The notes beneath the pieces are model-generated. The model saw nothing but the letters and a program-made list of their open reading frames with translations, was not told where the DNA came from and made no database searches. This document shows positions 11,876 through 64,000 of a stretch of 64,000 nucleotides of DNA, in pieces. The stretch comes from Vibrio quintilis (lineage in GTDB: Bacteria; Pseudomonadota; Gammaproteobacteria; Enterobacterales; Vibrionaceae): the NCBI RefSeq assembly GCF_024529975.1, contig NZ_AP024897.1, positions 1,302,001-1,366,000 on the forward strand. The letters are read 5' to 3'. Made by a program: the position numbers and the translations under genes. The number at the start of each line of letters is the position of its first letter. The first letter of the stretch is position 1.

Positions 11876-12512
11876 AAATTTTCTTCCTCAACGGTGATTC
11901 CCGTATCATCCGTGAGTGCGGAGCGAATCTTAACAAACTCATTTGGTCTGTAAAGACTTTTCTGAAAAAATTGAGTCGAATGATGCCTTTTTGGACAAAG
12001 CAGTTAAAATTCAGGCAATATTCGTTATTCACATAGAATGACTATCCCCAAACAACCTGAATCATGCATCTTCAGGTTGCCTGGGGATATACATCTCTCT
12101 TCATTTTTTGCTCAGAATATTTTTAGGCTGAACAAAATTCGCACCCGTAAGGTCTGCTTATCGATATTTGCCTCGTCACCAAAAGTGGCACATATTCAGG
12201 AACTAATGAAATGGATACCTCCCTGAATCGACTTCAGTGACTGTGTCTCCATAGGATGAAACAACGGCTGATGAAAAACAGAGCAGCGTTAATCAACCCG
12301 GTTCGGGGATAGTCACTTTTTGCTGTCGTTGAACAGGCCATCAGAGTAAACAGGACTCCGGAGGCGACGGGCTAACGGGGACAGACGCATGACTGCTTGC
12401 CGCTGCTGAAATGAGCGAAAAAGTTTTCATGGAATAAATTCCGGATTAAGCTGTCTGATACACAGCGTTTGGATACACAGATATCCTTCATTATAAAAAA
12501 CGGAGAAAAGTC
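11876..12512. other. Gene-free interval between the tRNA-Tyr promoter side and the peroxiredoxin gene
   Basis: No convincing gene is present; the short open frames here have no family signals. It holds a complete palindromic repeat (12043-12089), one GGGGACAGACGC motif at 12377-12388, and presumably the tRNA and peroxiredoxin promoters. The sequence around 12240-12400 looks like decayed DNA of unknown origin. Confidence 0.6.
12043..12089. repeat. Palindromic repeat, AACCTG/CAGGTT family (copy 2)
   Basis: The left arm at 12043-12061 pairs with the right arm at 12071-12089 with only one or two mismatches around a 9-base loop. The outer arms read TATCCCC and GGGGATA, a sequence variant of the TATACCC form seen in other copies, changed on both sides together. 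Confidence 0.85.
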
Positions 12513-12986
12513 ATGATCGAACAAGGAAAAAAACTGCCAGAAGCGACACTCAGTTATCTGACGGCAGACGGGATGCAAAATCATCAGGTATCAGAACTAT
12601 TTGCAGGAAAGAAAGTGGTTCTGTTTGCGGTACCGGGGGCGTTTACACCCACTTGCTCAGAAGCGCATTTACCGGGATATGTCGTGCTGGCTGATCAGAT
12701 TAAAGCCAAAGGTGTGGACCTGATTGCCTGTGTTGCTGTCAATGATGCTTTTGTGATGAAAGCCTGGGGAGAAACACAGAATGCATCTGAGCTGATGATG
12801 CTTGCTGATGGAGATGGCAGCTTTACCAAAGCATTGGGACTTGAAATGGATACCGCCACATTTGGGGGAATTCGTTCGCAACGTTATGCGATGATTGTCG
12901 AAGATGGTGTGGTGACGACGCTGAACGTAGAAGAAGGGAAGTTATTTGAAGCCAGTAAGGCAGAAACGATTCTGGCGCTTTTGTAA
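12513..12986 (+). CDS. Prx5-type peroxiredoxin
   Basis: The 157-residue protein has the peroxidatic motif PGAFTPTCSEAHLPGYV with catalytic C48 and supporting P41 and T45. Only one other cysteine (near residue 73) is visible, so recycling probably uses glutathione/glutaredoxin or thioredoxin. The Prx5 family reduces hydrogen peroxide and organic peroxides in the cytoplasm. GGAG lies nine bases before the ATG. A perfect 12-bp hairpin terminator follows. Just past it, on the opposite strand, is the tail of a broken HxlR regulator gene. Confidence 0.93.
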   Translation: MIEQGKKLPEATLSYLTADGMQNHQVSELFAGKKVVLFAVPGAFTPTCSEAHLPGYVVLADQIKAKGVDLIACVAVNDAFVMKAWGETQNASELMMLADGDGSFTKALGLEMDTATFGGIRSQRYAMIVEDGVVTTLNVEEGKLFEASKAETILALL

Positions 12987-13011
12987 ACTCAGGCTGGTTC
13001 GGTAAAGCCAC

Positions 13012-13040
13012 GGAAGCAACGGTTACCGTTGCTTCCTTTT
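13012..13040 (+). terminator. Rho-independent terminator of the peroxiredoxin gene
   Basis: GGAAGCAACGGT at 13012-13023 and ACCGTTGCTTCC at 13025-13036 form a perfect 12-bp stem with a one-base centre, followed by TTTT. It overlaps the stop region of the opposing HxlR remnant. Confidence 0.9.
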
Positions 13041-13172
13041 CCCCCATTGAGACAATGCATGAATCACCGGGGTCAGCGTTCTGCCATAATCGGTTATCGC
13101 ATAATCGACCCGGGGTGGTATTTCCGGATAAACCTGTCCGGTGTTTGTTTCCGGCCAGATAAATAAGCCGGG
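13023..13172 (-). pseudogene. C-terminal remnant of an HxlR-family transcriptional regulator
   Basis: Reading the minus strand to the stop at 13025-13023 gives a tail typical of HxlR regulators: VYPEIPPRVDYAITDYGRTL followed by TPVIHALSQWGKRKQR. The frame upstream is closed by a stop at 13175-13173 and no helix-turn-helix part is present, so only about 45 codons survive. HxlR proteins are small winged-helix regulators. Its 5' part appears to have been lost where the FG-GAP gene and its flanks now lie. The conserved tail is recognised directly; how it was lost is inference. Confidence 0.8.
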
Positions 13173-13196
13173 TCAAAACCCATGAGAATCAAAGTG

Positions 13197-15017: not shown

Positions 15018-15332
15018 AATATTTCCTTATTTCTGTGTTGAATCTGAATAACAATAATATGCATCCGGTTGATTTAACGTTAACTACCGGGGACAGGCGT
15101 GTAAAATTATGTAAAAACGATCGCATTAACTACCGGGGGAATGACCGGGGACAGACATGTTACAGGTGCAAAAGACACATGATGGTTCAGTGTGTTCAAA
15201 GCTGAAACTGTCTCCTGAGGTTGTTTGGGGATAACCGGTAAGAGCAGGCCGTTTAAGTCAGCCTGCTTTTCAGTCATATAATGCAGGTTGAATGCATTCT
15301 GAGCTGGTTGATTATGTCAAATCATCAACCCA
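15018..15332. other. Repeat-bearing gap between the FG-GAP gene and the PL9 gene
   Basis: No gene is visible. The gap contains two dispersed motifs (GGGGACAGGCGTG at 15089 and GGGGACAGACATG at 15147), half of a palindromic repeat (15217-15233), and a weak hairpin (AGCAGGC 15243-15249 with GCCTGCT 15261-15267) that could terminate the pectate lyase transcript. Confidence 0.7.
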
Positions 15333-16643: not shown

Positions 16644-17142
16644 AATCTTTAGCCTTAATTATTGTTAGATATTGACTACACACCTGAAAATATATTCATT
16701 GATAATGCGTAGCTAATCACAAAGTAAAATGGGCCATACCATTTGGAAACTGTATTTACAGGGAAGAGTGATTTTTTGGAAGGCTTTTCACAAACTTGCA
16801 TAGTGAGAAGTCAGGTCTGTATTCACCTGTTGAATGGTTAATTTATCTTGTTGAAATTACGCATTTATTTTGTGAATTGCAGATCGCATAATTATTCATG
16901 TTGTCCCCACGGGACGGAGCAGGGACAGACACCCTTATCTGGACACCCGGATTTGAATCAACCTGCTCCGGGAATCGTTCCTGACAGTCATACGCCGCAT
17001 TTTATGTCGGAAGCGCTCAGACTTTTTCTGCCAGAATAAAAATGACAGCTACCAGATATTTGCATATACCCAAGCAACCTGCATCTTCAGGTTGTTTGGG
17101 TATATAAGTAGCTGATAATTATACAGAGGTTACTGTTATCGG
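16644..17142. other. Gap between the PL9 and GH140 genes, with repeats and a possible gene fragment
   Basis: The interval has one AGGGACAGACACC motif at 16921-16933 and a full palindromic repeat at 17064-17105. The plus-strand frame ending at 17039 runs on after the motif with SHTPHFMSEALRLFLPE. This looks like a real protein tail (it recalls the catalytic-His region of alpha/beta hydrolases), but it is too short to classify. The PL9 promoter should lie near 16650-16800. Confidence 0.5.
17064..17105. repeat. Palindromic repeat, AACCTG/CAGGTT family (copy 3, best preserved)
   Basis: Eighteen-base arms (17064-17081 and 17088-17105) pair with a single mismatch around the loop CATCTT. It starts 38 bases after the GH140 stop codon and may act as its terminator or mRNA end. 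Confidence 0.88.
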
Positions 17143-18669: not shown

Positions 18670-18741
18670 GGGGACAGACACCCAACCAGCGGGGAAACTC
18701 GTGGGGACAGACACGTCAACAGACCCGGGACAGACGCACCA
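18670..18741. repeat. Cluster of three GGGGACAG-type motifs in a gene-free gap
   Basis: Copies start at 18670 (GGGGACAGACACC), 18713 (GGGGACAGACACG) and about 18727 (CGGGACAGACGCACC), all in the same orientation. The gap 18562-19082 otherwise contains a gene remnant, half of a palindromic repeat (18943-18959) and the promoter region of the gene at 19083. Confidence 0.85.
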
Positions 18742-23807: not shown

Positions 23808-26447
23808 TTACGGCTTATCTCCTTCCCGGTTTGCCAGCCAGACTGCTGCCAGAATCAGTCCCGTCATCAGCATAAACGCAAAGACAATCTCTAGCTGATA
23901 ATCTTTGAAAAACGGGTCGGCGATAAATACCAGCATCAGGGCCAACACTGATGCACAGCTGAATGCGACAAATGGCAGGCTGTTCAGATGCCTGCGCAGC
24001 GGATAAATCCACATACTGCTGACCAGCAGCACAATCATTATCGTGAAAATACCGGCCAGTGTGACCCGCAGCAGCCAGCGGTTCGGGCAGACAAAGTTCA
24101 TCACATGGGTGAAGGTTTGCCTGAGTTGATTCAGCAGCGGATAAAGCAGCGGACTTTCAGGAAAAAAAGTGGCACTGATCAGCTGTTGGTCTGCTTCGTC
24201 TAAAGGAACCGGCCAGAACGCGGCACCGGCATAATTCCAGCTGGATAACCTGACCAACCGGTCAAGTGCGTTTTTTTGTCCCCGGCTGTCAGCGGTAACC
24301 AGGACCGGCACGATATCCGGAAATATCTTTGCCACGGTTTCCTGATCCTGTTGCCCGCCAAGCCACGCCTGTAACTCGCGGATTTGACTGATTTCATCCA
24401 GATCATGCTGTGTTGCAGGCTGCTCTGCAGAAGTATTGTCCGGCGGATTGCTGGCGGGATCGCCGGGCAGGGTAATGAGCAGGTTGGTCAGCCGGGCTAA
24501 CTGATTCAGGTTGTCCAGATCATAGATGTTTTCCGGATCACCATATGAGTGGCTGGTGATGGTTTTCACCGGAATCACAATATTCAGAAAATACCGGTCG
24601 CCGGGGGTTGCGGTAAGCTGGTCTGATACCGGCACACCCAGCAGCGCTGCTTTCAGGCGACGTACAAAATCAAGAAAGATCTGTTGACTGGCTTCGTCAT
24701 TCAGCGGGGATAAGTCCAGATACAGTGTCACGCCATCTCCCATGGTTGGCACCGGGGACAGACCAAAGGAGAGCAATGGTTTCATCTGATTGACAAATCG
24801 TTTGCCGAGCGGTTGTTTCACCGCTGCCACCAGTGAGGTCACCAGATCGGTTGCGTTGGTTCTTCTGGTCAATATCCGGATCAACTGTGCTTTAGTCAGA
24901 TGTTTCGGCGTGGTGACCACCAAATCAACGGCACTGCGATAGCGTTTTGCCGTCTGAAGAAATTGCGTAAATTCAGGCCGATTTTGCCAGTTGGGTGGCA
25001 GGATGAGTTCAGCATTGTCCCCGGCAGGTTTGATGACGGCGGCGATGTAACCAATCCGGTCAAGCTGACTGAAGCGAATCGTCTCCCGGGGGGTGCCGCC
25101 TTTTGCGGCAGGGCTTCCTGATAAGGACCAGTACGGCGCAAAACCATAGAAAGTACCATCACTTTGTATAGCCGGTTTACTGTCCTGACAGCCACAATCA
25201 TCCGGTGCCTCCCATAGCATGGGTGTCTGGCTTTGAGGCATGTTTCCTTCTTTTTTCGCCAAATCCAGAATGCTTTCTGCGGCTTCGCCGGAAGTCGGTA
25301 AACCCGCCAGTTTGAAGGCCATCGCAATCATCAGATCGCTGGCAAATGCCTGATTCTGTAGTGGTGCCAGCTTTTTCAGCAGAGCTTTGTCTACTGGTAC
25401 CAGATTGTCCTGATTCAGGATATTTTGCAGCGCACCGGGCTTCATTTGCCAGATGATTTGTTGGGGTGCAGCAGATTGAAAATTAATCGTGGTTTCTTTG
25501 TCGCCGGGTTGAGTCGTGTTGCTATCGGTTTTATTTTGGGGGTTATCTGTACCGCCGGATTTGATTTTCAGGGTCTGAGCCGGTGCGGCGGGTAAACTCA
25601 GTCTCTGAGACTCAATTAATGCATTGATATCGACACTTTTGCCCAGTTTGGCAAACGCTTCATGCAACGTATTGAACAACGTGCTGCGTTGTTCAAACTG
25701 TTGGGATTCCAGCTTTTGTAGTTTTGCCAGAATGGCCTGACGCTGGCCGAGCCGGGTTAAATCTGCAGCCGTGAGCTGATAATAAACGGGTAAATCCGGT
25801 GTCGTGTCTTCTTTCCGTATTTCTGGTTGTGAAGTTTTCTGAACAATTCCGGCGATAATTTTATCGGCGATTTCACTTTGTTTCAGGTGGAGTAATGTGG
25901 TGGGTGCAATATATCCGCGCCAGTTCGGATACAAGGCATTTAAGTAGGTGGCCCGGTCTAAATCAATCAGAATGGATTCCATGAATGCCTGATGGCTGGC
26001 GGGCTGTACGACGTCAAATTCAGCACAGAAATAGGCCAGCCAGCTGCGGGTGACTTTGCCCCAGCGACCGTCATTGAGATATTTGTCATCGTGCGGGAAC
26101 TGAGGATCGTCCTGATACAGCGCGTTGAGCTGATACTGAATGGTCCGGACATCATACGGCGCTTTGTCATCCCGTAGCCGCAGATTGCATTTCTCAAACT
26201 CGCTGCCTGCGCGGATGGCGTCGGATGATGTCTGACTGGTGTTATTTACCGTTGCGGAGGCGGTGGTTGCTGTTGTGGGGACAGGCACCGTTGCGGGGAC
26301 AGACGTTGTTGCCGTTGTGGAGGATGCAGCAGTGGGGACAGGCGGGATAAATCCCCAGAAAATCAGGACGAAACAGAACAACCACGGAAGCAGTGAAACC
26401 GGTCGTGTGCACCGGTTTTTCAGACATCGGGAGAGTAATTGGATCAT
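23808..26447 (-). CDS. Large envelope protein of the injection-system locus (PG-binding-like, GH18-like, membrane-anchored)
   Basis: The 879-residue protein starts with one hydrophobic helix (about 19-38). A Thr/Pro/Val-rich linker follows that contains dispersed-motif peptides (TSVPATVPVPT). A peptidoglycan-binding-like segment lies at about 85-145 (RTIQYQLNALY to GRWGKVTRSWLAYFC), and a GH18-like region at about 440-720 begins FYGFAPYWSLSG. Three membrane helices end the protein (about 783-803, 812-830, 843-863). A catalytic DxxDxDxE motif is not evident. It is the last gene of the locus, 12 bases after the tape-measure gene, so it belongs to the operon. I infer an envelope-anchoring or wall-interacting component; there is no counterpart I can name in Afp or PVC. 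Confidence 0.7.
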   Translation of the reverse strand: MIQLLSRCLKNRCTRPVSLLPWLFCFVLIFWGFIPPVPTAASSTTATTSVPATVPVPTTATTASATVNNTSQTSSDAIRAGSEFEKCNLRLRDDKAPYDVRTIQYQLNALYQDDPQFPHDDKYLNDGRWGKVTRSWLAYFCAEFDVVQPASHQAFMESILIDLDRATYLNALYPNWRGYIAPTTLLHLKQSEIADKIIAGIVQKTSQPEIRKEDTTPDLPVYYQLTAADLTRLGQRQAILAKLQKLESQQFEQRSTLFNTLHEAFAKLGKSVDINALIESQRLSLPAAPAQTLKIKSGGTDNPQNKTDSNTTQPGDKETTINFQSAAPQQIIWQMKPGALQNILNQDNLVPVDKALLKKLAPLQNQAFASDLMIAMAFKLAGLPTSGEAAESILDLAKKEGNMPQSQTPMLWEAPDDCGCQDSKPAIQSDGTFYGFAPYWSLSGSPAAKGGTPRETIRFSQLDRIGYIAAVIKPAGDNAELILPPNWQNRPEFTQFLQTAKRYRSAVDLVVTTPKHLTKAQLIRILTRRTNATDLVTSLVAAVKQPLGKRFVNQMKPLLSFGLSPVPTMGDGVTLYLDLSPLNDEASQQIFLDFVRRLKAALLGVPVSDQLTATPGDRYFLNIVIPVKTITSHSYGDPENIYDLDNLNQLARLTNLLITLPGDPASNPPDNTSAEQPATQHDLDEISQIRELQAWLGGQQDQETVAKIFPDIVPVLVTADSRGQKNALDRLVRLSSWNYAGAAFWPVPLDEADQQLISATFFPESPLLYPLLNQLRQTFTHVMNFVCPNRWLLRVTLAGIFTIMIVLLVSSMWIYPLRRHLNSLPFVAFSCASVLALMLVFIADPFFKDYQLEIVFAFMLMTGLILAAVWLANREGDKP
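26277..26345. repeat. Three GGGGACAG motifs inside the membrane-protein gene
   Basis: Copies at about 26277, 26297 and 26334 share orientation and encode, on the minus strand, VPVPT, SVPAT and PPVPT in the linker just after the first membrane helix. Confidence 0.8.
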
Positions 26448-26459: not shown

Positions 26460-29400
26460 TTAACGCCAGGTGACAAACAGGGGTTTGTCCATCCATGGGT
26501 ATTTGATGGTTTGAAAGCTCCAGGGCAGCTGATCGAGTAACATATCGAACGGACCGGGAAACACATCCAGCTGCCACTGTTTTTCCGTTTCGGAGAGATT
26601 GCCGCCCCGCTGAAAAAAGGTGGTTTGTAACCCTTCAACCGAGGTCGAACCCAGGGCTTTCCAGTGACCAATCATTGCCTGAAGCAGTCCTTCTATCAGG
26701 CTTTCCGCATCTTGCGGCAGTAAAATGGTGAAAGGCACCGGTTCATGCAGTGCCATGCCGCACAGGACTTTATTCAGCATCAGCAGATATTCCGGCGCTT
26801 CATTGGTGCCGTCTGTCAGCCATTGCAGGCAGAAAATCGCCTGCTGGCGGGTTTGCGGGCTGATGAATTGCTGTCCGTCGGTTAGTTCAAGGCGTTGCAG
26901 CAACATGGGAATATAGGTCGAAGCCAGCACCAGCCCGGCATTGATGATCGGGATGGGCTCTCCGGTGATTTCATTGTCATTTGTGGCATCCGGATGCTGC
27001 CATTGCAGCGGTTCGGGTTTGGAAATTTCTGCCTGAGTTGAGGTGTCTGTCCCTGTAAGCGCTTCTGCCGGAAGAGTTGAGGTGTCTGTCCCTGTAAGCG
27101 CTTCTGCCGGAACAATTGGGGTGTCTGTCCCTGCAGGAATAGGGGCGTCTGTCCCCGGAATTTTCGGAGACAGAGTGCCTGTCCTTTCAGTCTCACCAGC
27201 CGGGGCAATTGAGGCGTCTGTCCTTTCAATCCTTTCAATATCACTTTTCATTTCATCCGCCAGCGCTTTCAGCCATGCTGCCTCTGAGGGCAGTTGCTGT
27301 GCCAGTTGCTGAGTTAGGATACGGCGTCTGTCCCCACTATTTCCTCTGTCCCCACTATTTCCTGAAGCGGTGTGGTGTCTGTCCTCACAATTCTCAGAAA
27401 GGAGATTATCGCGTCTGTCCTCATTAGAGGGAGGATGTGGAACTGCGGTATTCAGACAGGCTGCAATACGGGCATCATCTGCCAGATCACTGAGCAATTG
27501 CCGGAAAAGCGTGCTGAAGGTGCCCTGAATATCCTGTAGTAACCAGCGGTGATAGACGATATGCCAGAAAGCCATCCGAACGGATGTTTGTCTTTCGGTG
27601 AACTGTCCTCCGGTGAGCAGCATCAGCGCGCTGTAAAGGGTGGTGAGAAAAGCCATCCGTTGCGGATAACGGCTGCTAAAAAGCGCCATATGACATTCAT
27701 CATCAAGTGTTTTAATCCAGCGGTTGCATTGCTGCTGTGACTGAAGCTGAATCGCCAGTCGTCGCCACAGTGTGTCATGGTGATTGTGAATGAGGTGGCA
27801 GACTGCATTGCTGGTCAGCATGTCCGGCAGAGTGACCATATCACCGTTCAGCCACGCTGTCAGTCCGGCGGGTTCCTGCAATGCAGCCAGCCATGGTTGC
27901 CATTGCGTTTGGATCTGGTTGCTTCCGTTCAGTGTTTGTCTGAGTCGCAGTTGTAACTGTTCACTGGCCTGAATTTCTGTCTGGTCAGGATGAAGTTTTT
28001 GCAGCTCACGGCGTAACGCATGGCACCAGTCTCTGATGGTTTTGGGGGGCTGAGGCCGGAAGATCAGACGGTAGAACACATATGCTGGCAGCGCTGTTGC
28101 CTGAAACAGACGGATAAGTTGTGGCAGAAACGGACGTAAATGTTGCCACAGTGATGGTGCCAGTGTTGTGATGAGTTGCTGTTGGGCATCCGGAGAAAAA
28201 TGCCCGATCGCGTAGTCAGTGGCGTCGCTGTGGCTGATGTGACGAAGAAAGCGGCGAACGTCTGTCCGTTGGGATTCAGTCAGTATGATTCCGTCCGGAT
28301 GCCCGGGTAACTGATTGAGCCACTGGCTGGCCGTCAGACCGGCCGCATGATCGAAGTGGGTGAGAATCGGGGTTAAGTCATCCTGAAACCTGACCGGTAA
28401 CGTGTCGATGGTCAGGAAGGTTTGAATCAGCAGACGCAGATTCAGATTGTGCCGTGCTGCCAGCTGTGTCATCAGGGACGCCAGATAACTGCGGCGGTTA
28501 AATTCGCTGCCGCGCTCTGCCAGCAGATAGGTCAGACTGATCGTCCAGAGACTGATTTGCAGCGCATGGACAGGAAGTGGCGGTGTGACCGGGAGATGCC
28601 GGGACACTGTTGGGGCCATGTGAACCACGCTTTCGACCACAGGTGCAGCGGCCGGGTCGATCAGCGTGACGAGTGCCAGTCGTGCCGGGTGATCAAACTG
28701 TTCTGCCCACTGCTGACGGCGGGTTTCATTTGCACCCAACTGATGCAGCAGGGGTTGAATCTGCGTTTGATGCGTGTCCAGCCACTCTGTCGGCAGCGTT
28801 TTCCATTTGCCGGAATCAGGGTGCAGCAGTATCTGTATCAGGGTGCGAAGATGTGTCAAAGACGCGGGTTGTTGTGCTGGTGAAAATGATTCTGACTGAT
28901 ATTGCCACCACTGGGTTACTTTCAACAATGCATCGCTGGTCAATGCATCAACCGGGGCGGCAGGTTCTGGTTGCCCGTGTTGCCTTAGCACCAGCAACAG
29001 TGTCATCAGCTCGTGTTGCGGCTCATCAGTCAATGCGGCGATCATCGCCTCAATCAGCAGATTCTGACTGATATTTCGCCGGGCCGCCATCTGGCGTACG
29101 AGTGATTGCAGATAGCTGCGGCGGTTAAACTCACTGCCACGCTCTGTCAGCAAATAGCCCAAAGTGAACTGCCACAGGCTGACCCGCAGTGCTGCATCTG
29201 TCATCGCTGATGAATTTACAGAAGTTGCAGGAGAAGTTGCAGGGACAGGCGCTTTTGTTGTTGCCGGTAGGGCAGCCGGTTTTGCAGGGACAGGCACTCC
29301 AAATTCTGTTTTTGCAGGGACAGACGCCCCAAATTCTGTCGCAGGTGCTGCAGATTTAGCGGGGACAGGCGCGATAAAAATCCGGCGTTTGCCGATGATG

Positions 29401-31232
29401 TGCCGGACAAAATCCCGTGCACCCGGTGCAATCATGGTGGTGAAATCCAGCAGCATCGGGTCAGTGTAATCTTCAGCCCAGTGCTGACGGACTGCCGCCA
29501 GTTGCCCGGCCTTCAGCAACAGAGGTCTCAGAATCTCCGGTTCATCCGGCCACAAGCGTTTCAGCGTGGTTTCACTGCCTTGTTTCAGCGCCAGCAACAG
29601 GGCGGTGGTGTCGCTGGTTGTGGTTTGAACAGTGAGCCGGACGGATTTTCCCTCCTGTACCGGCACTGATAGCGGATCACCGGAGATCTGAGTCTGTATA
29701 CCGGCAGACTGCGTCGCGGCATTGAGCCAGGATGCTGACATCGCTTGTTGTACCTCCGGCCATGGCTGCGGTGTACTCTTCGCAGATTCCGGCCTGCGGG
29801 TGTCTGGTTTTTCCCATGTTTGTGCAATGTCGTCCAGCAGGCCACGCATCTGTGCCTGCAACGTTGAGTCAGTGGTTTTTGTTTGTAATGCGTTCTGTAA
29901 TCCCCGCAGTAACAGTACCGGCTTGTCGTTATTGGCAGCAGCCATCCGGATCAGCAACGTCATCAGAAACTGTCGCCGGTTAAACTGACTGCCGCGTTCG
30001 GTCAGCAGAAAGTGCAGGGTAAAGCACCAGAGTTGTTGCCGCAGATGCGACAGTGGGCGGGAAACGGGTAAAGCAGGTGGGGACAGTCCACTTTCCGGGC
30101 CATTTTCCGGCTTATTTTCTGAGGACAGGCGCTTTCCTGTTTCCGGTGTTTCCGGGGACAGACGCCTTTCCGGTGTCTCTTTTGCCTTGTCCGGTCTGCC
30201 AGTGACCTGCTCTGGCTGACTGAGGCTTTGCCACAGGTGTGGGGCTTGCAGTATCCGGCTCAGAAACGGATATTCTGTGGGTTCAAGACAGGCCAGTAAG
30301 GCAAAGCGCTGTGCTTCGCTGAGTGAATCCACCAGTACAAAAGGCAGCGCGCCATCCTGTGCGTTCTGGCGCAGTGCGTTCAGGAGTGGTTCGCGATAAT
30401 CCTGTGTCAGTGTGTCCCAGTCATTCAGCAGTCCGGTGAGCTGATGACGGCTGAAAGCCTGCGTCAGCCGGGTTTGCCAGAGCTGGTTCAGCACCACCTT
30501 CAAGCGTGGATGATCGCGTTTCGGATGACGGATCAATCGCTGTATCGCCTGCCGTTGTATCATGGGTGACAGCGTCACCAGCAGATCAGCCAGTGATTCT
30601 GCCGGTGTCTGCTCGATCAGCCGGCTCAGCAGCATGTTCTGGTGACTTTGCTGCTCACTTTGCTGATGATGTTGCAGGTTCTCTGGCCGAAATAGTTGAT
30701 TGAGCCATTCGGGATGGCCCAGCCATGCCTGAGTCAGACGTGCCAGTGTGGCGGGTTGTTGCGGGTCGGCAGACCAGGGCAGCCGGCCGGTTTCCAGAAA
30801 ACAGCGGGCCTGAAACCAGATATCATCCGTGTGTGTCCGGCGTGTGATTCCCTGTGGTTCTGAACGCTGTAATTCTTCCGCTCTGTGCGGGCCGCTGGCT
30901 TCTGCCGTCACGGCACCTGTCTGAGTGCGTTGGGCGGATTGATGCTGTTGCAGATAAGGCAGCAGTTGCCCGCGTATCCGGGTGTCGATGCCGCTCAGCA
31001 GATCGTCGTAAAGGCTGTCTGCCGGAATATTGCCCACATCCAGCTGCAGCTGGTCAATGGTGATCACTTCTCCGGGCGGACAGAGCTGGTCGAAAAGCTG
31101 TTCGAGATGCGGCAGCAGGCGTTGCATCACCCACTGATGGGCCTGCTGTTCAAAGGCTTCGGCCACCGGCTGGCTGTCAAAATTCAGTTCGAGCCGGGCG
31201 TTGCCGATTTGATGCGGCCGTATCTCTGTCAT
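26460..31232 (-). CDS. Contractile injection system tape-measure protein
   Basis: The 1590-residue protein begins with the conserved N-terminus of the CIS tape-measure family (RPHQIGNARLELNF, then ITIDQLQLDVGNIP). Three copies of a homologous helical block occur at about residues 394, 682 and 890, each containing LLTERGS-FNRR or a close variant, plus a decayed fourth near 1220. Linkers at about 345-390, 622-668 and 1290-1410 are low-complexity and consist largely of peptides encoded by the dispersed motif (RRLSPE, APVPA and TGTDT, three frames). The family is inferred to set tube length. Its ATG overlaps the previous gene by four bases. Extra linker copies may change protein length between strains. 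Confidence 0.85.
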   Translation of the reverse strand: MTEIRPHQIGNARLELNFDSQPVAEAFEQQAHQWVMQRLLPHLEQLFDQLCPPGEVITIDQLQLDVGNIPADSLYDDLLSGIDTRIRGQLLPYLQQHQSAQRTQTGAVTAEASGPHRAEELQRSEPQGITRRTHTDDIWFQARCFLETGRLPWSADPQQPATLARLTQAWLGHPEWLNQLFRPENLQHHQQSEQQSHQNMLLSRLIEQTPAESLADLLVTLSPMIQRQAIQRLIRHPKRDHPRLKVVLNQLWQTRLTQAFSRHQLTGLLNDWDTLTQDYREPLLNALRQNAQDGALPFVLVDSLSEAQRFALLACLEPTEYPFLSRILQAPHLWQSLSQPEQVTGRPDKAKETPERRLSPETPETGKRLSSENKPENGPESGLSPPALPVSRPLSHLRQQLWCFTLHFLLTERGSQFNRRQFLMTLLIRMAAANNDKPVLLLRGLQNALQTKTTDSTLQAQMRGLLDDIAQTWEKPDTRRPESAKSTPQPWPEVQQAMSASWLNAATQSAGIQTQISGDPLSVPVQEGKSVRLTVQTTTSDTTALLLALKQGSETTLKRLWPDEPEILRPLLLKAGQLAAVRQHWAEDYTDPMLLDFTTMIAPGARDFVRHIIGKRRIFIAPVPAKSAAPATEFGASVPAKTEFGVPVPAKPAALPATTKAPVPATSPATSVNSSAMTDAALRVSLWQFTLGYLLTERGSEFNRRSYLQSLVRQMAARRNISQNLLIEAMIAALTDEPQHELMTLLLVLRQHGQPEPAAPVDALTSDALLKVTQWWQYQSESFSPAQQPASLTHLRTLIQILLHPDSGKWKTLPTEWLDTHQTQIQPLLHQLGANETRRQQWAEQFDHPARLALVTLIDPAAAPVVESVVHMAPTVSRHLPVTPPLPVHALQISLWTISLTYLLAERGSEFNRRSYLASLMTQLAARHNLNLRLLIQTFLTIDTLPVRFQDDLTPILTHFDHAAGLTASQWLNQLPGHPDGIILTESQRTDVRRFLRHISHSDATDYAIGHFSPDAQQQLITTLAPSLWQHLRPFLPQLIRLFQATALPAYVFYRLIFRPQPPKTIRDWCHALRRELQKLHPDQTEIQASEQLQLRLRQTLNGSNQIQTQWQPWLAALQEPAGLTAWLNGDMVTLPDMLTSNAVCHLIHNHHDTLWRRLAIQLQSQQQCNRWIKTLDDECHMALFSSRYPQRMAFLTTLYSALMLLTGGQFTERQTSVRMAFWHIVYHRWLLQDIQGTFSTLFRQLLSDLADDARIAACLNTAVPHPPSNEDRRDNLLSENCEDRHHTASGNSGDRGNSGDRRRILTQQLAQQLPSEAAWLKALADEMKSDIERIERTDASIAPAGETERTGTLSPKIPGTDAPIPAGTDTPIVPAEALTGTDTSTLPAEALTGTDTSTQAEISKPEPLQWQHPDATNDNEITGEPIPIINAGLVLASTYIPMLLQRLELTDGQQFISPQTRQQAIFCLQWLTDGTNEAPEYLLMLNKVLCGMALHEPVPFTILLPQDAESLIEGLLQAMIGHWKALGSTSVEGLQTTFFQRGGNLSETEKQWQLDVFPGPFDMLLDQLPWSFQTIKYPWMDKPLFVTWR
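27040..27430. repeat. Dense cluster of dispersed motifs within the tape-measure gene
   Basis: About nine copies lie here in the CTGTCC orientation, including a near-perfect 39-base direct duplication at about 27040-27115 that encodes the repeated AEALTGTDTSTLP unit. Most copies keep the reading frame that yields TGTDT; those beyond 27329 are read in the RLS-type frame or in imperfect variants. Confidence 0.8.
29228..29380. repeat. Four dispersed motifs in the linker before the second tape-measure block
   Basis: Copies at about 29234, 29289, 29320 and 29369 lie in the GGGACAG orientation. They are read on the minus strand as APVPA, VPVPA or ASVPA, spaced 30-55 bases apart. Confidence 0.82.
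30080..30175. repeat. Three dispersed motifs in the linker before the first tape-measure block
   Basis: Copies near 30082, 30123 and 30158 are read in a different frame from the cluster at 29228, giving GLSPP, KRLSSE and RRLSPE. Confidence 0.8.
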
Positions 31233-46529: not shown

Positions 46530-46895
46530 GTTTTTCTCCTGTGGCGGGTGATCCGGTGTTTGCCGGGGAGGTGGATTTCAACCCCCCGGACTATTAAAGA
46601 TATATCCATGTTGTATATGAGTAAAGTTGATGAGTGATGGTTTTCATTTTTCTTGTGGGGACAGACACCTGCTCATATGAGTGTTCTTGTGAGGACAGAC
46701 GCTTTTGGAGGGATGATTTTTGCAGCGGCTGCTCTTTATGGGTGCTTTTTGTGAGGACATGCTTTTGTGAGGAAAGTGCTTTTGTGAGGACAGACGCCTG
46801 AATTTTGTCAGGACAGGCTGCTAAGAAATACGCCCGCCCATCAGACGGGGCGGGCGTGTTGGGATCTGTTGTTATGCAGATCCCTTTGGGGGAGC
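46530..46895. other. Gap between the injection-system locus and tctA, rich in dispersed motifs
   Basis: No gene. It holds at least four dispersed motifs (GGGGACAGACACC near 46660, GAGGACAGACGC near 46693, GAGGACAGACGCC near 46786, AGGACAGGC near 46810), some arranged as degenerate tandem units containing TTTTGTGAGGACA. The CIS promoter presumably lies at 46570-46650. Confidence 0.75.
46830..46857 (-). terminator. Hairpin terminator of the tct operon
   Basis: ACGCCCGCCC (46830-46839) pairs perfectly with GGGCGGGCGT (46848-46857) around an 8-base loop, 39 bases after the tctA stop. ATTTCTTAG follows on the minus strand, a moderate U-tract. Confidence 0.75.
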
Positions 46896-48428: not shown

Positions 48429-48905
48429 TTAATTGTTCAGCCAGAGTTGTTCAGCCAGCCATCCCGGTGCCAGATAAATATCAAGCACCTGAGTCAGTAA
48501 AACCCAGAAACCAACGGCAAAGGGGACAGACGCAACCAGCAGTATCCGGGGACGACGTTCGCCCAGTATCCGGTAACCGGCGAGCAGAAAGCCAATCGTG
48601 GCAATCAGGAACCCGGCCCACGGCAGCGCAAATGAGAACACCAGCATCAAAATCAGCAGCTGCACAGCCTGTGTGTACTGAATACCTGCCCGGCTCTGGC
48701 CGGACTGCAACTGGCGCTTCACGGTGATGAGTTGTAAAAAAGAGAGCACGATGCCAAGTCCGGCAAGTACGGTGGGCATGGAACGTGCGTTAAAGGGTTC
48801 GAATTCATCGCCGGGAAAGAGTGCAATTTCGCGGGTGTAGTATCCGTATAACATGGAAAAGCAGAGAAACAGCAGTCCGCCTGCATGATCTTTTGTGATG
48901 GTCAT
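48429..48905 (-). CDS. tctB: Tripartite tricarboxylate transporter, small permease TctB
   Basis: The 158-residue protein has four predicted membrane helices, the last pair separated by a short loop, and is typical of TctB (DUF1468). The segment LLVASVPFAVGFWVLL is encoded across a perfect GGGGACAGACGC motif at 48522-48533; the peptide is compatible with the family, so the motif may be chance here or may have been tolerated. It lies between tctC (88-base gap) and tctA. Confidence 0.9.
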   Translation of the reverse strand: MTITKDHAGGLLFLCFSMLYGYYTREIALFPGDEFEPFNARSMPTVLAGLGIVLSFLQLITVKRQLQSGQSRAGIQYTQAVQLLILMLVFSFALPWAGFLIATIGFLLAGYRILGERRPRILLVASVPFAVGFWVLLTQVLDIYLAPGWLAEQLWLNN

Positions 48906-49983: not shown

Positions 49984-50137
49984 ACATTCTTCCTTGTTGG
50001 GCTTTGTTTTAGTTTTCACCTGACAAGTTAGCCTGTGAATTTAAATGTGAATAGTTTGTAAATCTAAAGTGAATAAAAAAGCTATTGGTCATTTTGTTCA
50101 TATTGTTCACGATGAAAGCGGATGGCTGAATTGATGC

Positions 50138-50289
50138 GTCTGTCCCTGTTATTTGATGTGTCTGTCCCTGTTATTTGTTGCGCCTGTCCCCGCTATTTGA
50201 TGCGTCTGTCCCTGTTATTTGCTGCGTCTGTCCCCGTTATTTGCTGCGTCTGTCCCTGTTATTTGTTGCGTCTGTCCCTGTTATTTTCG
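50138..50289. repeat. 22-bp tandem array, seven units, built from the dispersed motif
   Basis: Seven head-to-tail units start at 50138, 50160, 50182, 50204, 50226, 50248 and 50270, each close to GTCTGTCCCTGTTATTTGNT. Units differ at a few positions (CCC/CCCCG, GAT/GTT/GCT). The array lies between tctC and the sensor gene, in the 459-base gene-free gap 49984-50442. There is no spacer diversity, so it is not a CRISPR array. Confidence 0.92.
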
Positions 50290-54885: not shown

Positions 54886-54937
54886 CCGGAAACAGACGAT
54901 TTTCTGAAGGTGAAGTCCGGGTTGTGACCGCTAGTGG

Positions 54938-56803: not shown

Positions 56804-56868
56804 TCCGATCCGGAGTGAGGGATTGGTTTATAGCGGGGACAGACGTTGGTATTTATTGTGAGGACAGG

Positions 56869-56978
56869 CGACATATTGTGGGGACAGACACTGCATTTTT
56901 TGGAAGGATAGGTGCGTTACTTTTATCTGTTTTGAAAAAGCCAGGCCTTAACCGGACTGAGTTGTGTCTGTCTGAAAG
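56869..56978. repeat. 110-base direct repeat, copy A
   Basis: The sequence from CGACATATTGTGGGGACAG to GTGTCTGTCTGAAAG recurs almost unchanged as copy B (58857-58879 plus 60218-60303, split by the IS). By eye the copies differ at about three positions: one extra T in a T-run, an A/G and a C/T. Together they flank lysR and the SDR gene. Confidence 0.9.
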
Positions 56979-57092
56979 TGTTGTGGGGACAGACAGCGTA
57001 AGCCTTCATTTTAGGGCGTCTGTCCTTTCAACCTCAGGGGGTGGCTTATCGCAGTGCTGAATCCTCAGTGTGGGACCAGGGTGGTATCCTGT

Positions 57093-58001: not shown

Positions 58002-58109
58002 TAATTCGTTCTATTCCGGAAACAATAAATTCATAAATTGTAGACTAATTGAAAACAAATAATCCCGCTACCCTGTGTCTGTGATTCAATTTAAACCGGA
58101 GAGCAGATC

Positions 58110-58835
58110 ATGAACACATATACATTAATTACTGGCGGAACCACTGGTATTGGTTTTACCGCCGCTGAAAAACTGATTGCTGAGGGGCGTCAGATCATCA
58201 TCACCGGGCAGAATCCACAACGGGTTGAAGCTGCGGCAGAAAAACTCGGTTGTACCGGGCTGGTGGCTGACAGTGGTGATATGGCGTCTGTCATCGCACT
58301 GGCCTACAAGCTGCGTCAGGACAATATCCGCTTAGACGGGCTGGTTTTGAATGCAGGGACGTTTATTCCGGCCGGGTTTGAAGAGACAACTGAAGCTGAT
58401 TTTGATAAAAGCTTTGCGGTTAACACCAAAGGGCCGTTTTTTACCCTTCAGGCATTGTTGCCCTGTTTGAGTCATCCGTGCAGTGTGGTGTTTGTATCAA
58501 GTATTGCGGTGGATAAAGGGTTTGCCGGATGTGCTGCTTATGCGGCCAGTAAAGCGGCGGCAGAGGCTTTTATGCGGGTGGCGAATATCGATCTGGCATC
58601 GCGGGGGATTCGCATCAACATTTTGCGTCCGGGGGTCACTGCAACACCGATTCAGGGCAAAGCCGGGATCAGTGAGGCAGAGAAACAAGCGTTGTTTAAC
58701 AGTCTGGACAGTACGGCACTCGGCCGGGTGCTGACCCCGGATGATCACGCCGGAACCATTTCATACCTGCTCTCTGATGCGTCACTGGCAATACGTAATG
58801 CTGTTATTCAGGTTGATGGCGGGTATGCTTTGTAA
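58110..58835 (+). CDS. Short-chain dehydrogenase/reductase
   Basis: The 241-residue classical SDR has the cofactor motif TGGTTGIG near residue 8, the NAG motif (LVLNAGTF), the catalytic S-Y-K set (VSSIAV and YAASK) and the terminal VDGGYA. GGAGAG precedes the start. The substrate is unknown; such lysR-SDR pairs are often in aldehyde or ketone detoxification. It ends 21 bases before copy B of the direct repeat that also flanks lysR on the other side. Confidence 0.92.
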   Translation: MNTYTLITGGTTGIGFTAAEKLIAEGRQIIITGQNPQRVEAAAEKLGCTGLVADSGDMASVIALAYKLRQDNIRLDGLVLNAGTFIPAGFEETTEADFDKSFAVNTKGPFFTLQALLPCLSHPCSVVFVSSIAVDKGFAGCAAYAASKAAAEAFMRVANIDLASRGIRINILRPGVTATPIQGKAGISEAEKQALFNSLDSTALGRVLTPDDHAGTISYLLSDASLAIRNAVIQVDGGYAL

Positions 58836-58879
58836 GCCGGTAAAGTGCTTGTTTTTCGACATATTGTGGGGACAGGCAC

Positions 58880-60206
58880 TGAGGTATCCCCACAAATTTT
58901 AAAAAAATGTTCAAATAAATCAGGTTGGCAGGAACATTCATGGCTTTTTGTGATCTTAATTGTCACCACAACAAACCAGACCACAGCCATGAATGTCGAC
59001 CAAATCATATCTCAATTTGTTACTTCTGTCTCTCAAGGGGGGCATCAAACCCGTACTCAATCACTCACTGCCTGCGTACAAAGTGCCATGTCTGGGAACG
59101 CCTTGACCGTGACTTCTATGGGGCGGGGGATTCAGTCAAAAGCCCATCAAAAACATAATATTAAACGGGCTGACCGACTCTGTTCCAATCCACACCTTTG
59201 GGCTCAAATCCCCTTGATTTATCAGCGAATTTGCACACTCATTGTTTCCAAAAATTCACGACCAACCATCCATGTTGACTGGTCTGACTTAAACCTGAGT
59301 AAAACCCTTTTCCTTATCCGGGCGTCCATCTCTTTTCAGGGACGGGCACTCACACTCTATGAAGAAGTTCATCCACTGGAGACGAAAGAGAAACCAGCGA
59401 CTCATGACCTTTTTCTGAAAACGCTCAAGCTCCTTTTGCCCAAAAATACTTGCCCCATCATTGTAACTGATGCCGGCTTCAAACGTCCGTGGTTCAAGAG
59501 CGTTCAGGCTTTAGGATGGGACTTTGTCGGTCGTATTCGTGGACGGATTTGCCTGAGTCCGGATGGCAAGACGATGCAGCTTTGTAAAACCCTGTATCCT
59601 TGTGCAACCTCATCCGCTCGTGGGCTGAAAAACTGGTTCATGGGAGGAACATCCCCTTATCCGCTTCAGCTGGTTTTATATAAAGAACGACCCAAAGGCC
59701 GGATCGCCAAAACCGCTGGTGGAAAAAGAAAGCAGTCAAACTACAGTAAGAAGAATGCCCGTCGGGCCAGGGAGCCGTGGCTCCTTGCAGCCTCATTAAA
59801 TTTATCAAAAAAGTCACCCGCTCAGATTGTTCAAATTTACCATCAGAGAATGCAGATAGAAGAAGCGTTCAGAGACCATAAATCCAGTCAGTTTGGTATG
59901 GGGATGGAACAGCACCGAACAAAGAGTCACTCGCGTCTGAGTGTGATCGTTTTGATTGGAACACTAGCGCATAACATACTGATATTATTTGGTATTATGA
60001 TGGAAGAACAAGGGCTTCATAGACACTATCAAGCCAACACAGTCAAAGATCGGAGAGTGCTTAGTCATGTGACATTAGGTCTTCATTTTTATCGTCATGG
60101 CAACGCAGATCTCTCTCTCGATGACTGGCATTTAGCCATCCTCATATTACGAGAAAAAGTCACTGAGTCTCAGGTGATTAGAGAATAATTTTGTGGGGAT
60201 CCCTCA
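58880..60206 (+). mobile_element. IS4-family insertion sequence, 1327 bp, complete
   Basis: Terminal inverted repeats are TGAGGTATCCCCACAAA at the left (58880) and the near-identical TGAGGGATCCCCACAAA read inward from 60206. An 11-base target duplication, GGGACAGGCAC, lies at 58869-58879 and 60207-60217. It has one intact transposase gene. The duplicated target is itself a copy of the dispersed motif. Confidence 0.93.
58989..60188 (+). CDS. IS4-family transposase
   Basis: The start at 58989 (MNVDQIISQFVTSV) gives 399 residues; the longer frame would begin outside the element. It is a DDE transposase: Asp in HVDWSDLNL, Asp in IVTDAGFKRP, and the YREK signature in YHQRMQIEEAFRDHK. The gene is intact and flanked by matched inverted repeats, so the element may still be active. 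It does not appear to carry passenger genes. Confidence 0.93.
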   Translation: MNVDQIISQFVTSVSQGGHQTRTQSLTACVQSAMSGNALTVTSMGRGIQSKAHQKHNIKRADRLCSNPHLWAQIPLIYQRICTLIVSKNSRPTIHVDWSDLNLSKTLFLIRASISFQGRALTLYEEVHPLETKEKPATHDLFLKTLKLLLPKNTCPIIVTDAGFKRPWFKSVQALGWDFVGRIRGRICLSPDGKTMQLCKTLYPCATSSARGLKNWFMGGTSPYPLQLVLYKERPKGRIAKTAGGKRKQSNYSKKNARRAREPWLLAASLNLSKKSPAQIVQIYHQRMQIEEAFRDHKSSQFGMGMEQHRTKSHSRLSVIVLIGTLAHNILILFGIMMEEQGLHRHYQANTVKDRRVLSHVTLGLHFYRHGNADLSLDDWHLAILILREKVTESQVIRE

Positions 60207-60391
60207 GGGACAGGCACTGCATTTTTGGAAGGATAGGTGCGTTACTTTTATCTGTTTTGAAAAAGCCAGGTCTTAACCGGACTGAGTTGTGTCTGTCTGA
60301 AAGGCTGACTCATCCGGATTGATCACAAATATGCAATAAGTAATTATTTATGTTTAATAATAACACTGTTTATAATCGTGTTTGATTGAAT

Positions 60392-61606: not shown

Positions 61607-61618
61607 GGTAACGAACTT

Positions 61619-61652
61619 CAAGGGACAGACAGCATCTTCGGGACAGGCACCT
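61619..61652. repeat. Two dispersed motifs after the orphan gene
   Basis: AGGGACAGACAG near 61621 and CGGGACAGGCACC near 61639 lie in tandem just past the stop codon at 61606. Confidence 0.8.
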
Positions 61653-61662
61653 GCGCCGCCGT

Positions 61663-61699
61663 AATGAAAAGCCGTGCATTTATGCGCCAGCTTTTCATT
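61663..61699. terminator. Hairpin between the orphan gene and fumC
   Basis: AATGAAAAGC (61663-61672) pairs with GCTTTTCATT (61690-61699) over 10 bp around a 17-base loop. It is 27 bases past the fumC stop on that strand and may terminate both convergent units. Confidence 0.55.
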
Positions 61700-61725
61700 C
61701 ATGGTGAGTCATGGTGAAGAAAGCG

Positions 61726-63111
61726 CTACTCAGCCAGACCGCCGTGGGTCAGTTTCTCCGGATCCAGCAGGTTAGCCAGTGTTTCTCTCGGCAGATCGGT
61801 TTCTTCTTCGGCAACATCCAGAATAGCTCTGCCTTGCTGGTAAGCTTTTTTAGCGATAGATGCAGCCTTGAGATATCCGATCACCGGATTGAGTGCTGTG
61901 ACCAGGATCGGATTTTTCTTAAGTGGTGTTGCTACCTGTTCATGCCGGACACGGAATGTTGCAATAGCCTGATCTGCCAGGGCGATAGCACTCTGACTTA
62001 ACAGATGAATGCTTTCAGAGATATTGTGGGCTATGACGGGTAGCATGACATTCAGCTGAAAGTTTCCTGACTGTCCTGCGATGGTGATGGAAGTATCGTT
62101 ACCAATCACCTGGGCTGATGCCATCGCCACTGCCTCCGGGATCACCGGGTTGACTTTTCCGGGCATGATGGAAGAACCGGGTTGCAGCGCCTGTAATTCA
62201 ATTTCCCCCAGTCCTGCCAGAGGACCGGAATTCATCCAGCGCAAATCGTTAGCAATTTTCATCATTGCAACTGCCGTGGTTTTCAGTTGCCCGGAAAGGG
62301 CAACAGTGGTGTCCTGGCTGCTGAGATTAAAGAAGTAGTTGTCGCTGGTGGTAAAATCTGTGCCGGTAACCTGCGACAATTGGCTGGCGAACTTTCCGGC
62401 AAATTGCGGATGTGCATTAATACCGGTTCCAACGGCGGTACCACCCTGAGCCAGAGCTTTGATTGCCGGCAGTTGCTGACGGATAGCCTGCGCGGCATGG
62501 TTAATCTGGTGCTGCCATCCGCTGAGCTCCTGAGCAAAACTAATTGGCATGGCATCCATCAGATGTGTCCGACCGGTTTTAATCACTGAAGTCAGCGTTT
62601 GCTGTTTGGCTCCGATGATTTCACTTAAATGATGCAGGGCTGGTAATAGCTGTTGTTCAACGGATAGGATGATGCTGACCTGAATTGCGGTTGGTACGAC
62701 ATCATTACTGCTTTGCCCCATATTGACATGATCGTTCGGGCTGACTGTCTTACCTGATGACCGGCTGGCGAGCGTGGCAAGGACTTCATTCATATTCATG
62801 TTTGAGCTGGTACCTGAGCCGGTCTGAAACACGCCTACCGGAAAGTGAGATAAATGCTGGCCTTCGATGATTTCCTGTGCAGCATCGCTGATGGCGACAG
62901 CAATATCCTTTTCTAATAATCCCAGTTGTGCATTGGTGGCTGCGGCTGCCTGCTTGATGAGTGCCAGAGCCTGTATGAAATCTTCAGGCATCAAATGATG
63001 ACTGAGATGGAAATTATCTGCGGCGCGTTGGGTTTGAGCCTGATACAGAGCATCTTCGGGAACCTGCACTGTTCCCATGCTGTCTTGTTCAGTTCTGAAT
63101 GATTGAGTCAT
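61726..63111 (-). CDS. fumC: Class II fumarate hydratase FumC (iron-independent)
   Basis: The 461-residue protein has the superfamily signature GSSIMPGKVNPVIPEA near residue 316, the active-site segment TGRTHLMDA with catalytic His near 187, and GTSSNMNMNEV near 98. It interconverts fumarate and malate without an iron-sulfur cluster. It lies 53 bases after the small gene at 63165, downstream of a Fur box, so it should be induced when iron is scarce and iron-dependent fumarases fail. AAGGA precedes the start. Confidence 0.96.
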   Translation of the reverse strand: MTQSFRTEQDSMGTVQVPEDALYQAQTQRAADNFHLSHHLMPEDFIQALALIKQAAAATNAQLGLLEKDIAVAISDAAQEIIEGQHLSHFPVGVFQTGSGTSSNMNMNEVLATLASRSSGKTVSPNDHVNMGQSSNDVVPTAIQVSIILSVEQQLLPALHHLSEIIGAKQQTLTSVIKTGRTHLMDAMPISFAQELSGWQHQINHAAQAIRQQLPAIKALAQGGTAVGTGINAHPQFAGKFASQLSQVTGTDFTTSDNYFFNLSSQDTTVALSGQLKTTAVAMMKIANDLRWMNSGPLAGLGEIELQALQPGSSIMPGKVNPVIPEAVAMASAQVIGNDTSITIAGQSGNFQLNVMLPVIAHNISESIHLLSQSAIALADQAIATFRVRHEQVATPLKKNPILVTALNPVIGYLKAASIAKKAYQQGRAILDVAEEETDLPRETLANLLDPEKLTHGGLAE

Positions 63112-63164
63112 TGGTTTATCCTTTTGTTTATCTGTTGTTATGTTTGTGAGATATAGTTGCTGAC

Positions 63165-63539
63165 TTACGGAAGCTGGCAGGATTGCAGGATTTTTTTCAG
63201 GGCAAAATACTTGTCGGTACCATGTTCGAATCCGATATAAAAACGCTGCAAACCTGAAAGTGGAATATAGATAGCGTCCAGACAGATTTTACGAAATACC
63301 GGAGTGCGTTCAGGATCAGAAATGGCGCTGACCACATGCAGATAAACCTGCTTTAAAAACAGTTCACATAGCAGTGTATTTTCAGCGTAAGCGTCCCGCT
63401 CATGATAGCCTGCGATTCGTTTGCCCCAGTGAATGTAGTCACTCACGACATCGGCTTCGTGGCCTTCCGGACAGGTTTGTTGCAAAAACCGGGACTGAGC
63501 TTTAAAGAAGGCATTATAAAGTGAGGTTTGATCAGGCAT
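63165..63539 (-). CDS. Small protein of the Fur-regulated fumC operon (FagA/OrfX-like position)
   Basis: The 124-residue soluble, helical protein has conserved-looking aromatic and cysteine residues (LQQTCPEGHE, ENTLLCELFLKQVYLHVVS, RKICLDAIYIP). I do not recognise a defined domain. In Pseudomonas the Fur-controlled fagA-fumC-orfX-sodA operon has small proteins around fumC; by position this gene matches one of them, but identity is inferred. GGGAG lies about nine bases before the ATG, and a Fur box 34-52 bases upstream. Confidence 0.75.
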   Translation of the reverse strand: MPDQTSLYNAFFKAQSRFLQQTCPEGHEADVVSDYIHWGKRIAGYHERDAYAENTLLCELFLKQVYLHVVSAISDPERTPVFRKICLDAIYIPLSGLQRFYIGFEHGTDKYFALKKILQSCQLP

Positions 63540-63572
63540 TAGCGAGCTCTCCCTGTTGAATTATCAATTAAT

Positions 63573-63591
63573 AGTAATGAAAATCATTATC
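63573..63591. promoter_or_regulatory. Fur box ahead of the fumC operon
   Basis: The 19-base window 63573-63591 matches the classic Fur consensus at 16 of 19 positions, with AATCATTATC perfect in the right half; the match extends with CATTTAC. It is 34-52 bases upstream of the first start codon, fitting promoter overlap on the minus strand. Confidence 0.88.
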
Positions 63592-64000
63592 ATTTACAAA
63601 TGATTCATGAGCAGTGGATGATGATCAGAGAGAAAGGATGCAGGGGAGATTTGTGGGTAGACTTATGTGAGGGTTTATGGGGACATTAGGTTCATAGGCA
63701 GGTGAGGTTTATAGGGACAGCCGTCTTTTGAGGCTAAACACTTTTGGGAAATACCTGGAGGTATTTGTTGGTTCTTGCGGGGATACTTGCGGGGACAGGC
63801 ATCTTTCTGCCCGGATATCATTGTGTTATCAAAAAAGTTGAAAGCGAATATTGAAAGGACAGTCACCCGAATAATAGCTGTTTGAATGGTCTGTCCCTGC
63901 AAAATTTGCCTGCAAAATTTGTTTCTGCAACTTTCAGGAAAACAAAGTCAGGGTAGTTCAGGGCACATATCTTAAGCTGCTGGTCAGTTTGCCATTCTCA
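63592..64000. other. Gene-free right end of the window, dispersed motifs
   Basis: No gene is supported. Motif copies or variants lie near 63715 (AGGGACAGCC), 63782 (GGGGACAGGCATC), 63857 (AAGGACAGTCACC) and 63890 (GTCTGTCCCTGC). The only longer open frame here is built from these repeats. Confidence 0.65.

Follow-up and report, generated by a model that had tools for sequence, protein, structure and literature searches.

What kind of element is a short motif that recurs, alone and in clusters, along a 64-kb stretch of chromosome 1 of Vibrio quintilis, and can it be linked to any gene? The stretch, hereafter the window, spans bases 1302001-1366000 of contig C1 in a genome of 5.85 Mb on three contigs, and we refer to each occurrence of the motif, whose core is GGACAGRC, as a tag. 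The window holds 28 copies of RGGGACAGRCRC, the degenerate pattern of the original prediction, against a mean of 0.07 (standard deviation 0.29) in 100 dinucleotide shuffles, and 65 of the core, against 3.29 expected from shuffling. Genome-wide counts are also far above chance, namely 135 copies of RGGGACAGRCRC and 72 of GGGGACAGRCRC, with 8 and 2 copies of the reversed control patterns, respectively. Thus, the dispersed motif is genuine and strongly enriched, although the count of about 55 originally given for the degenerate pattern does not hold: only the looser GGGACAG, with 61 copies, reaches it.

The tags lie in either orientation (38 plus and 27 minus cores, counted by hand from the list of cores), are clustered, and are nearly absent from the first 12 kb, a single GGACAGRC at 6876 preceding the first RGGGACAGRCRC at 12377. 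They are found both between and within genes, with 24 of 46 GGGACAGRC copies intergenic and 22 genic, given our own choice of which open reading frames are real; because about half of the copies are intergenic, protein coding alone cannot explain them. In these respects the original prediction was accurate, as it was in calling the motif non-palindromic, since none of six folded tags was significantly better at forming a hairpin than its shuffles. Along chromosome 1 the tag has hot spots at 1.31-1.45 and 2.81-2.92 Mb (among the first 100 places listed), on chromosome 2 copies are spread along its length, and four stretches at the ends of both chromosomes, 62 kb in total, hold 1, 2, 0 and 0 cores. 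Across the accessory genome, tags are found alone and in mostly direct arrays. A consensus built on 276 cores in 446.5 kb of this genome, from stretches picked around motifs, reads approximately T-W-R-C-R-G-GGACAG-R-C-R-C-Y-N-Y-A-A, the two positions before the GGACA[GC] core being G in 64% and 41% of the tags.

An enrichment analysis that presupposes no motif links the tag to a gene for a transposase-like protein of the Y1 kind, of about 320 residues. At 79 loci with organism names, mostly from Vibrionaceae (from the best 80 of 570 matches), GGACACAC is found 88 times within 350 bp of this gene, against 2.1 expected, at 41/79 loci, and GGACAGAC 52 times, against 3.3 expected, at 27/79 loci; shifted versions of both are likewise enriched. 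After removal of seven duplicates and 12 genes with short flanks from the 152 genes read, 133 remained, and around these GGACA[GC]NC[AG][CT] tags point inward: 109 genes have such a tag before them and 86 one after them, 78 are flanked by both and 117 by at least one, compared with outward tags upstream of 7 and downstream of 8. Where present, the nearest inward tag lies 132 bp ahead of the gene's start and 200 bp beyond its stop (medians). Tags on either side accompany all seven genes from the own genome, all 31 from other genomes of the genus and 65 of 70 from the named loci. Moreover, the tag comes in two types, GGACAG and GGACAC, and of 66 pure pairs 57 have the same type at either end; on a quick protein tree the type changes 8 times, against 32.8 when shuffled, over 98 labelled rows in which near copies help the result, 19 mixed-type and 16 tagless genes being left out. 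Most of these Y1 genes, therefore, lie between inward tags in a unit of about 1.3 kb that resembles a TIRtron, and the 78 genes with tags on both sides have the arrangement by which TIRtrons are recognized, a Y1 gene between terminal inverted repeats (TIRs).

At least eight genes of V. quintilis encode this protein, as found with an alignment of four own proteins as query (nine of 18 candidates were scored, nine being the maximum per genome), and five weaker family matches have open frames of 328-394 codons with tag variants near at least one side, mostly both. The four aligned proteins have 318-319 residues, are 67-71% identical to the first of them, and show the NHYH and YVDLNP motifs of Y1 enzymes, with YTDLNP in one own copy; among 32 aligned proteins, N70-H71-[Y]-H73, W162-E163 and Y183..P188 are invariant or nearly so. 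Pfam Y1_Tnp is matched by all four, the first below the family cut-off, and one own protein scores 41.5 bits against NF047646, a family of REP-associated transposases (REP, repetitive extragenic palindromic), below its cut-off of 80. No sequence match to any PDB chain was obtained at E up to 1. The predicted structure (pLDDT, a per-residue confidence score, of 81), in which extra helices are visible, has as its closest PDB match 4er8, a REP-associated transposase (E 4e-4, the sole match below 0.001), and matches ranked 2-28, with E above 0.001, are transposases of the Y1 kind. As modelled, then, the protein has the fold of a Y1 (HUH) transposase, with both the HUH motif and the catalytic tyrosine in place. 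Around one of these genes, CRISPR-like repeats with a period of ~61 bp appear, by impression from the letters, at L059:641-1369, 2605-2985 and 14182-15364.

Tag number follows the gene in the genus. When gene presence was scored at E up to 1e-60 in 227 genomes, 68 carried the Y1 gene, including all 24 with at least seven RGGGACAGRCRC, and none of the 159 genomes without it reached seven (maximum 6). Nine genomes with at least four Y1 genes have at most two RGGGACAGRCRC tags, and the GGACAC type was therefore predicted there; indeed, RGGACACACAC is present in 11-21 copies in seven of the nine (reversed control 0-3), compared with 0-4 copies in ten gene-free genomes. Of six GGACAG-rich genomes, four also have the GGACAC type (the own genome with 12 copies, control 2; the others with 19, 15 and 9, controls 0, 0 and 3), and the remaining two lack it (3 and 1 copies, against 3 and 4 of the control). 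Two genomes of the genus, G455 and G465, have four such genes each and few tags of both types, and these may use a third type.

Based on these results, we give a probability of roughly 0.65 to the reading in which a family of ~320-residue Y1 HUH proteins, of subclass 2.3 by its features and represented here by eight or more genes, uses the motif as its end and recognition tag. This reading draws on the observed association, its polarity and distances, the covariation of tag type, the dose relation, the in-frame insertions and the variable array length, the last two of which are described below; from these we infer that the enzyme binds and nicks tags and moves them in trans. In such a mechanism, the enzyme would bind and nick single-stranded DNA at a tag, and mis-joining and repair at nicked tags, together with replication slippage between tags, would put tags at new sites. 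The same events would add, remove or replace adjoining DNA, leaving the tag in place while its surroundings change, and within genes only in-frame outcomes in tolerant loops would survive.

The best reading in terms of known systems is a TIRtron-like family whose end tag became a dispersed, array-forming repeat. According to Di Nocera et al. (2013, PMC3733652), TIRtrons carry the gene of a Y1 transposase, or TIRYT, between TIRs, many with GGGGWSAS, and some TIRs are repeated in genomes, as dimers or clusters; 20 of the 26 TIRYTs examined there were of subclass 2.1 (PMC6006769). The elements found here share the Y1 gene between TIRs, and their tag resembles GGGGWSAS, which GGGGACAG and GGGGACAC fit, in that the GGACA[GC] core agrees with it, although the two positions ahead of the core are G in only part of the tags; they differ in a protein resembling subclass 2.3, where most TIRYTs are 2.1, and in a tag of ~20 bp that forms direct arrays, sits in frame in genes and has two co-varying end types. 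In the 2018 survey (Quentin et al., 2018, PMC6006769), subclass 2.3 has a median length of 325 residues, the motifs NHYH, WE and YVDLNP, domains specific to it among the core elements and at the C-terminal tail, and several diverged copies per genome; it prevails in Chromatiales and Alteromonadales, yielded no REP-like sequence to automatic or manual search, and was one of two large Y1 subclasses without an associated repeat. By length, motifs and several diverged copies per genome, the ~320-residue proteins fit TnpA-Y1 subclass 2.3, as judged from their sequences, whereas the tag and a host in Vibrionaceae depart from its published description. With REPs and their REP-associated tyrosine transposases (RAYTs; REPtrons, REPINs) the present case shares a single-domain Y1 enzyme family and a dispersed repeat family, and insertions of REPs in genes have been described (PMC6006769 and PMC3733652). 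In contrast with REPs, however, the tag lacks a hairpin and the GTRG foot tetranucleotide, the latter being absent from the consensus, and neighbouring tags at most 200 bp apart are mostly direct (105, against 24 inverted). A dispersed repeat family associated with a Y1 enzyme can thus, it seems, be built of a short tag that lacks a hairpin. Among the open-licence papers listed, as judged by titles, abstracts and passages, we found neither a link between such a tag and subclass 2.3, nor co-varying tag types, nor in-frame variable arrays at conserved loops, nor a tag-using insertion sequence (IS), and the repeat family was rightly called poorly described. A candidate DNA target in two sequence types makes the function of subclass 2.3 directly testable.

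The tags also enter proteins. Several genes of an extracellular contractile injection system cluster (window positions 23034-46529; tape measure, tube, sheath and baseplate hub by Pfam and PHROGs), contain them, and in the tape-measure gene ten GGGACAGRC fall where seven distant homologues have gaps or align poorly, the clearest case being residues 621-661. The orthologue of V. aerogenes, 63% identical over aligned columns, has 14 cores, compared with 16 here; four loops are shared, with core counts here and there of 2/3, 4/5, 3/1 and 6/4, and each orthologue has one lone core beyond them. Likewise, five tags make up an in-frame insertion of ~50 residues in an M14 peptidase (L059:10159-12114); the insertion is absent in all seven aligned homologues, which have 3-15 unrelated residues there instead. 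These are concrete cases of repeat arrays that lengthen protein loops in frame.

Turnover around the tags was followed in three related genomes by comparing their syntenic stretches, whose longer matches have a mean identity of 86-89%; the three comparisons overlap and are not independent. Tags that differ among the species do so by substitution in 21 cases and by gap in 6, and 39/92, 59/92 and 35/67 of the tags of the query genomes fall outside alignments, in part because the partner DNA was only partly retrieved. At 6-15 bp from those intergenic tags that are shared (22, 13 and 13), identity is down to 0.56-0.81, compared with 0.90-0.94 around control 9-mers; coding tags show little or no such dip. 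In variable intervals that contain a tag between exact anchors, the tag is present in both species in 8/11, 3/4 and 2/3 cases, and tags outnumber six permuted patterns (24 against 1-4, 10 against 0-1 and 11 against 0-3). The tags, therefore, sit in fast-changing stretches and outlast their surroundings, a persistence that may owe something to selection on them, to the enzyme acting at them again and again, or to the aligner anchoring on them.

It is tempting to go further and to see in the arrays a self-made diversity system, in which subclass-2.3 enzymes rewrite the DNA beside kept tags in place, but we regard this as an outside chance. If true, tagged loci, including the tape-measure loops, would outpace the remainder of the genome in changes of length and sequence, and the family would act as a generator, derived from a transposase, of variation at these loci, instead of as an element that does no more than spread itself. 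Somewhat less probable is that the tags are sites of a host regulator or DNA-organizing protein, kept by selection, with the Y1 genes as mere neighbours. Cores that persist while intergenic flanks change between species would suit such sites, as would the higher density between genes (24 tags in 10.0 kb, against 22 in 54.0 kb of genic DNA). However, high tag numbers are confined to genomes with the Y1 gene, distances to that gene are nearly fixed in many species, tag type follows the protein tree, and many copies lie inside genes, sense or antisense.

A further, rather improbable explanation, which dispenses with the enzyme, is that short repeats need nothing but replication slippage and unequal recombination to multiply. 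Flanks are duplicated in 25 of 95 adjacent tag pairs, against 1.2% at random, and regular arrays with 22- and 24-bp units are present, all as expected from slippage; yet 50 of the 95 pairs have both flanks below 50% identity, and 135 of 181 clusters are single tags, the others being direct arrays of 2 to 9. Since some pairs share flanks and others do not, both tandem duplication and independent placement seem to contribute to the arrays, and slippage fails on distant placement in both orientations and on the link to the Y1 gene. We consider it unlikelier still that solitary tags are remnant ends of decayed Y1 elements. The tags do form the ends of units that are multi-copy in the genome, but conservation drops to background within ~20 bp on either side of the core, the tag itself being ~20 bp long; the comparison of own loci, which aligned solitary tags and included no search with the interiors themselves, showed no element interior beside them; and decay would hardly yield arrays with as many as nine tags.

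The tag is itself used by an IS4-family element (NF033591 match) with eight copies in the genome, one in the window and seven elsewhere. The window copy is bordered by a 9-bp duplication, GGACAGGCA, at 58870-58878 and 60208-60216; judged by eye, four of the eight copies have perfect 9-bp duplications of GGACAGRCA, on either strand, a fifth is flanked by the tag on either side, with one difference, and in the remaining three the duplicated sequences are near-tags (AGACTGTTC, CGACAGTCG and AGTCTGTCT). Thus, the element seems to target the tag repeat, and by analogy the case looks like that of ISPpu9, which reportedly sits in REPs, and of other REP-targeting ISs, with which it shares insertion in a dispersed repeat; here, however, the IS is of the IS4 family, the tag is non-palindromic and the duplications are of 9 bp. 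Although this IS demonstrates that tags can serve as targets, we think it very improbable that they pre-exist as preferred targets for Y1 units, since matching-type inward tags on both sides at near-fixed distances are as expected for element ends, and gene-free genomes lack high tag numbers.

Several observations weigh against the tag being the end and recognition sequence of the Y1 family. Only 14 of 25 genes from other families of the order have a tag on at least one side, and 5 of 25 have a downstream one; 44 of the 68 gene-bearing genomes of the genus have fewer than seven RGGGACAGRCRC, and two of the nine gene-rich genomes lack both tag types (RGGACACACAC in 1 and 2 copies). Among the rows listed, no residue significantly explains GGACAG versus GGACAC in independent pairs, and tandem duplication alone accounts for part of the arrays, namely the 25 of 95 pairs with duplicated flanks. 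IS200/IS605-type elements use the lagging-strand template, and a replication-strand bias of the tags is absent (33 of 55 clusters, p 0.18), with the origin of chromosome 1 set by gidA at base 1 of C1 and that of chromosome 2 by what we take to be ParA-like and RctB-like genes at the ends of C2. Finally, no movement was observed: among the three related species alignable tags are mostly shared (220 sightings, or ~110 pairs, each seen from both genomes) and no solitary tag came out as a clean gain. Active spread is therefore not shown at this time scale, and the description of the family as active in the original prediction is not upheld. Target duplications at 115 solitary tags were not in excess of those in shuffled flanks (length 8: 3 vs 0.6), and among the retrieved loci of the own genome no copies differing by an inserted tag were seen; at the Tct locus, where empty sites were sought in 148 genomes of the genus, relatives were too diverged (~64-74% identity in listed matches).

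The original prediction had further suggested that a transposase of the RAYT kind encoded elsewhere could spread the motif. A transposase-like Y1 protein encoded elsewhere is what we find, one gene resembling subclass 2.3 starting at C1:1366115, 115 bp past the window end, but it is not the RAYT. One protein is listed above the cut-off of the REP-associated transposase family of NCBIfam, and this true RAYT (C2:652413-652868) lies more than 3 kb from any GGGACAG, in both directions. As a source of the tags it is ruled out, its flanks carrying different, palindromic repeats. At this locus (L061:9108-10386, ~C2:651.6-652.9 kb) the RAYT has its own tandem palindromic REP-like repeats, with a unit of ~100 bp. 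A RAYT is also mentioned within a Vibrio gene cluster in PMC12625758. IS200-like elements give 24 matches in the genome, 16 and 8 with equal scores.

Table 1. Tags and tag-bearing features of the window, in window coordinates.
Feature	Position	Strand	Basis
Single intergenic tag	12377..12388	+	pattern match
Two intergenic tags, cores at 15091 and 15149	15089..15158	+	pattern match
Single intergenic tag	16921..16932	+	pattern match
Array of three intergenic tags	18670..18735	+	pattern match
Three-tag array, antisense in 879-residue gene 23808-26447	26277..26343	+	pattern match
Tape-measure protein gene, contractile injection system, 16 tag cores	26460..31232	-	PF19268
Nine sense cores in tape-measure gene (arrays 27043-27223, 27324-27420)	27043..27420	-	pattern match
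Four-tag array, antisense in tape-measure gene; stretch absent from seven distant homologues	29241..29372	+	
Two tag cores, antisense in tape-measure gene	30123..30165	+	pattern match
Single tag, antisense in 1348-residue gene 34464-38510	35937..35948	+	pattern match
Four intergenic tag cores	46657..46818	+	pattern match
Single tag, antisense in small gene 48429-48905	48522..48533	+	pattern match
Seven 22-bp tag units between TctC-like gene and sensor kinase gene	50136..50279	-	Pfam for genes
Five-core cluster, four plus and one minus	56835..57025	both	
IS4-family element inserted in tag	58879..60207	+	borders by eye
Two intergenic tag cores	61622..61650	+	pattern match
Two cores (63793 plus, 63889 minus) upstream of subclass-2.3-like gene	63792..63896	both	

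The seven-unit array at 50136-50279 (Table 1) could affect the promoters of the TctC-like and sensor kinase genes that border it. Two other kinds of repeat were noted in the window: the gene of an FG-GAP protein (13197-15017) contains internal repeats of ~219 bp, and a 95-bp direct repeat, 97.9% identical between its copies, lies at 11644-11738 and 11789-11882.

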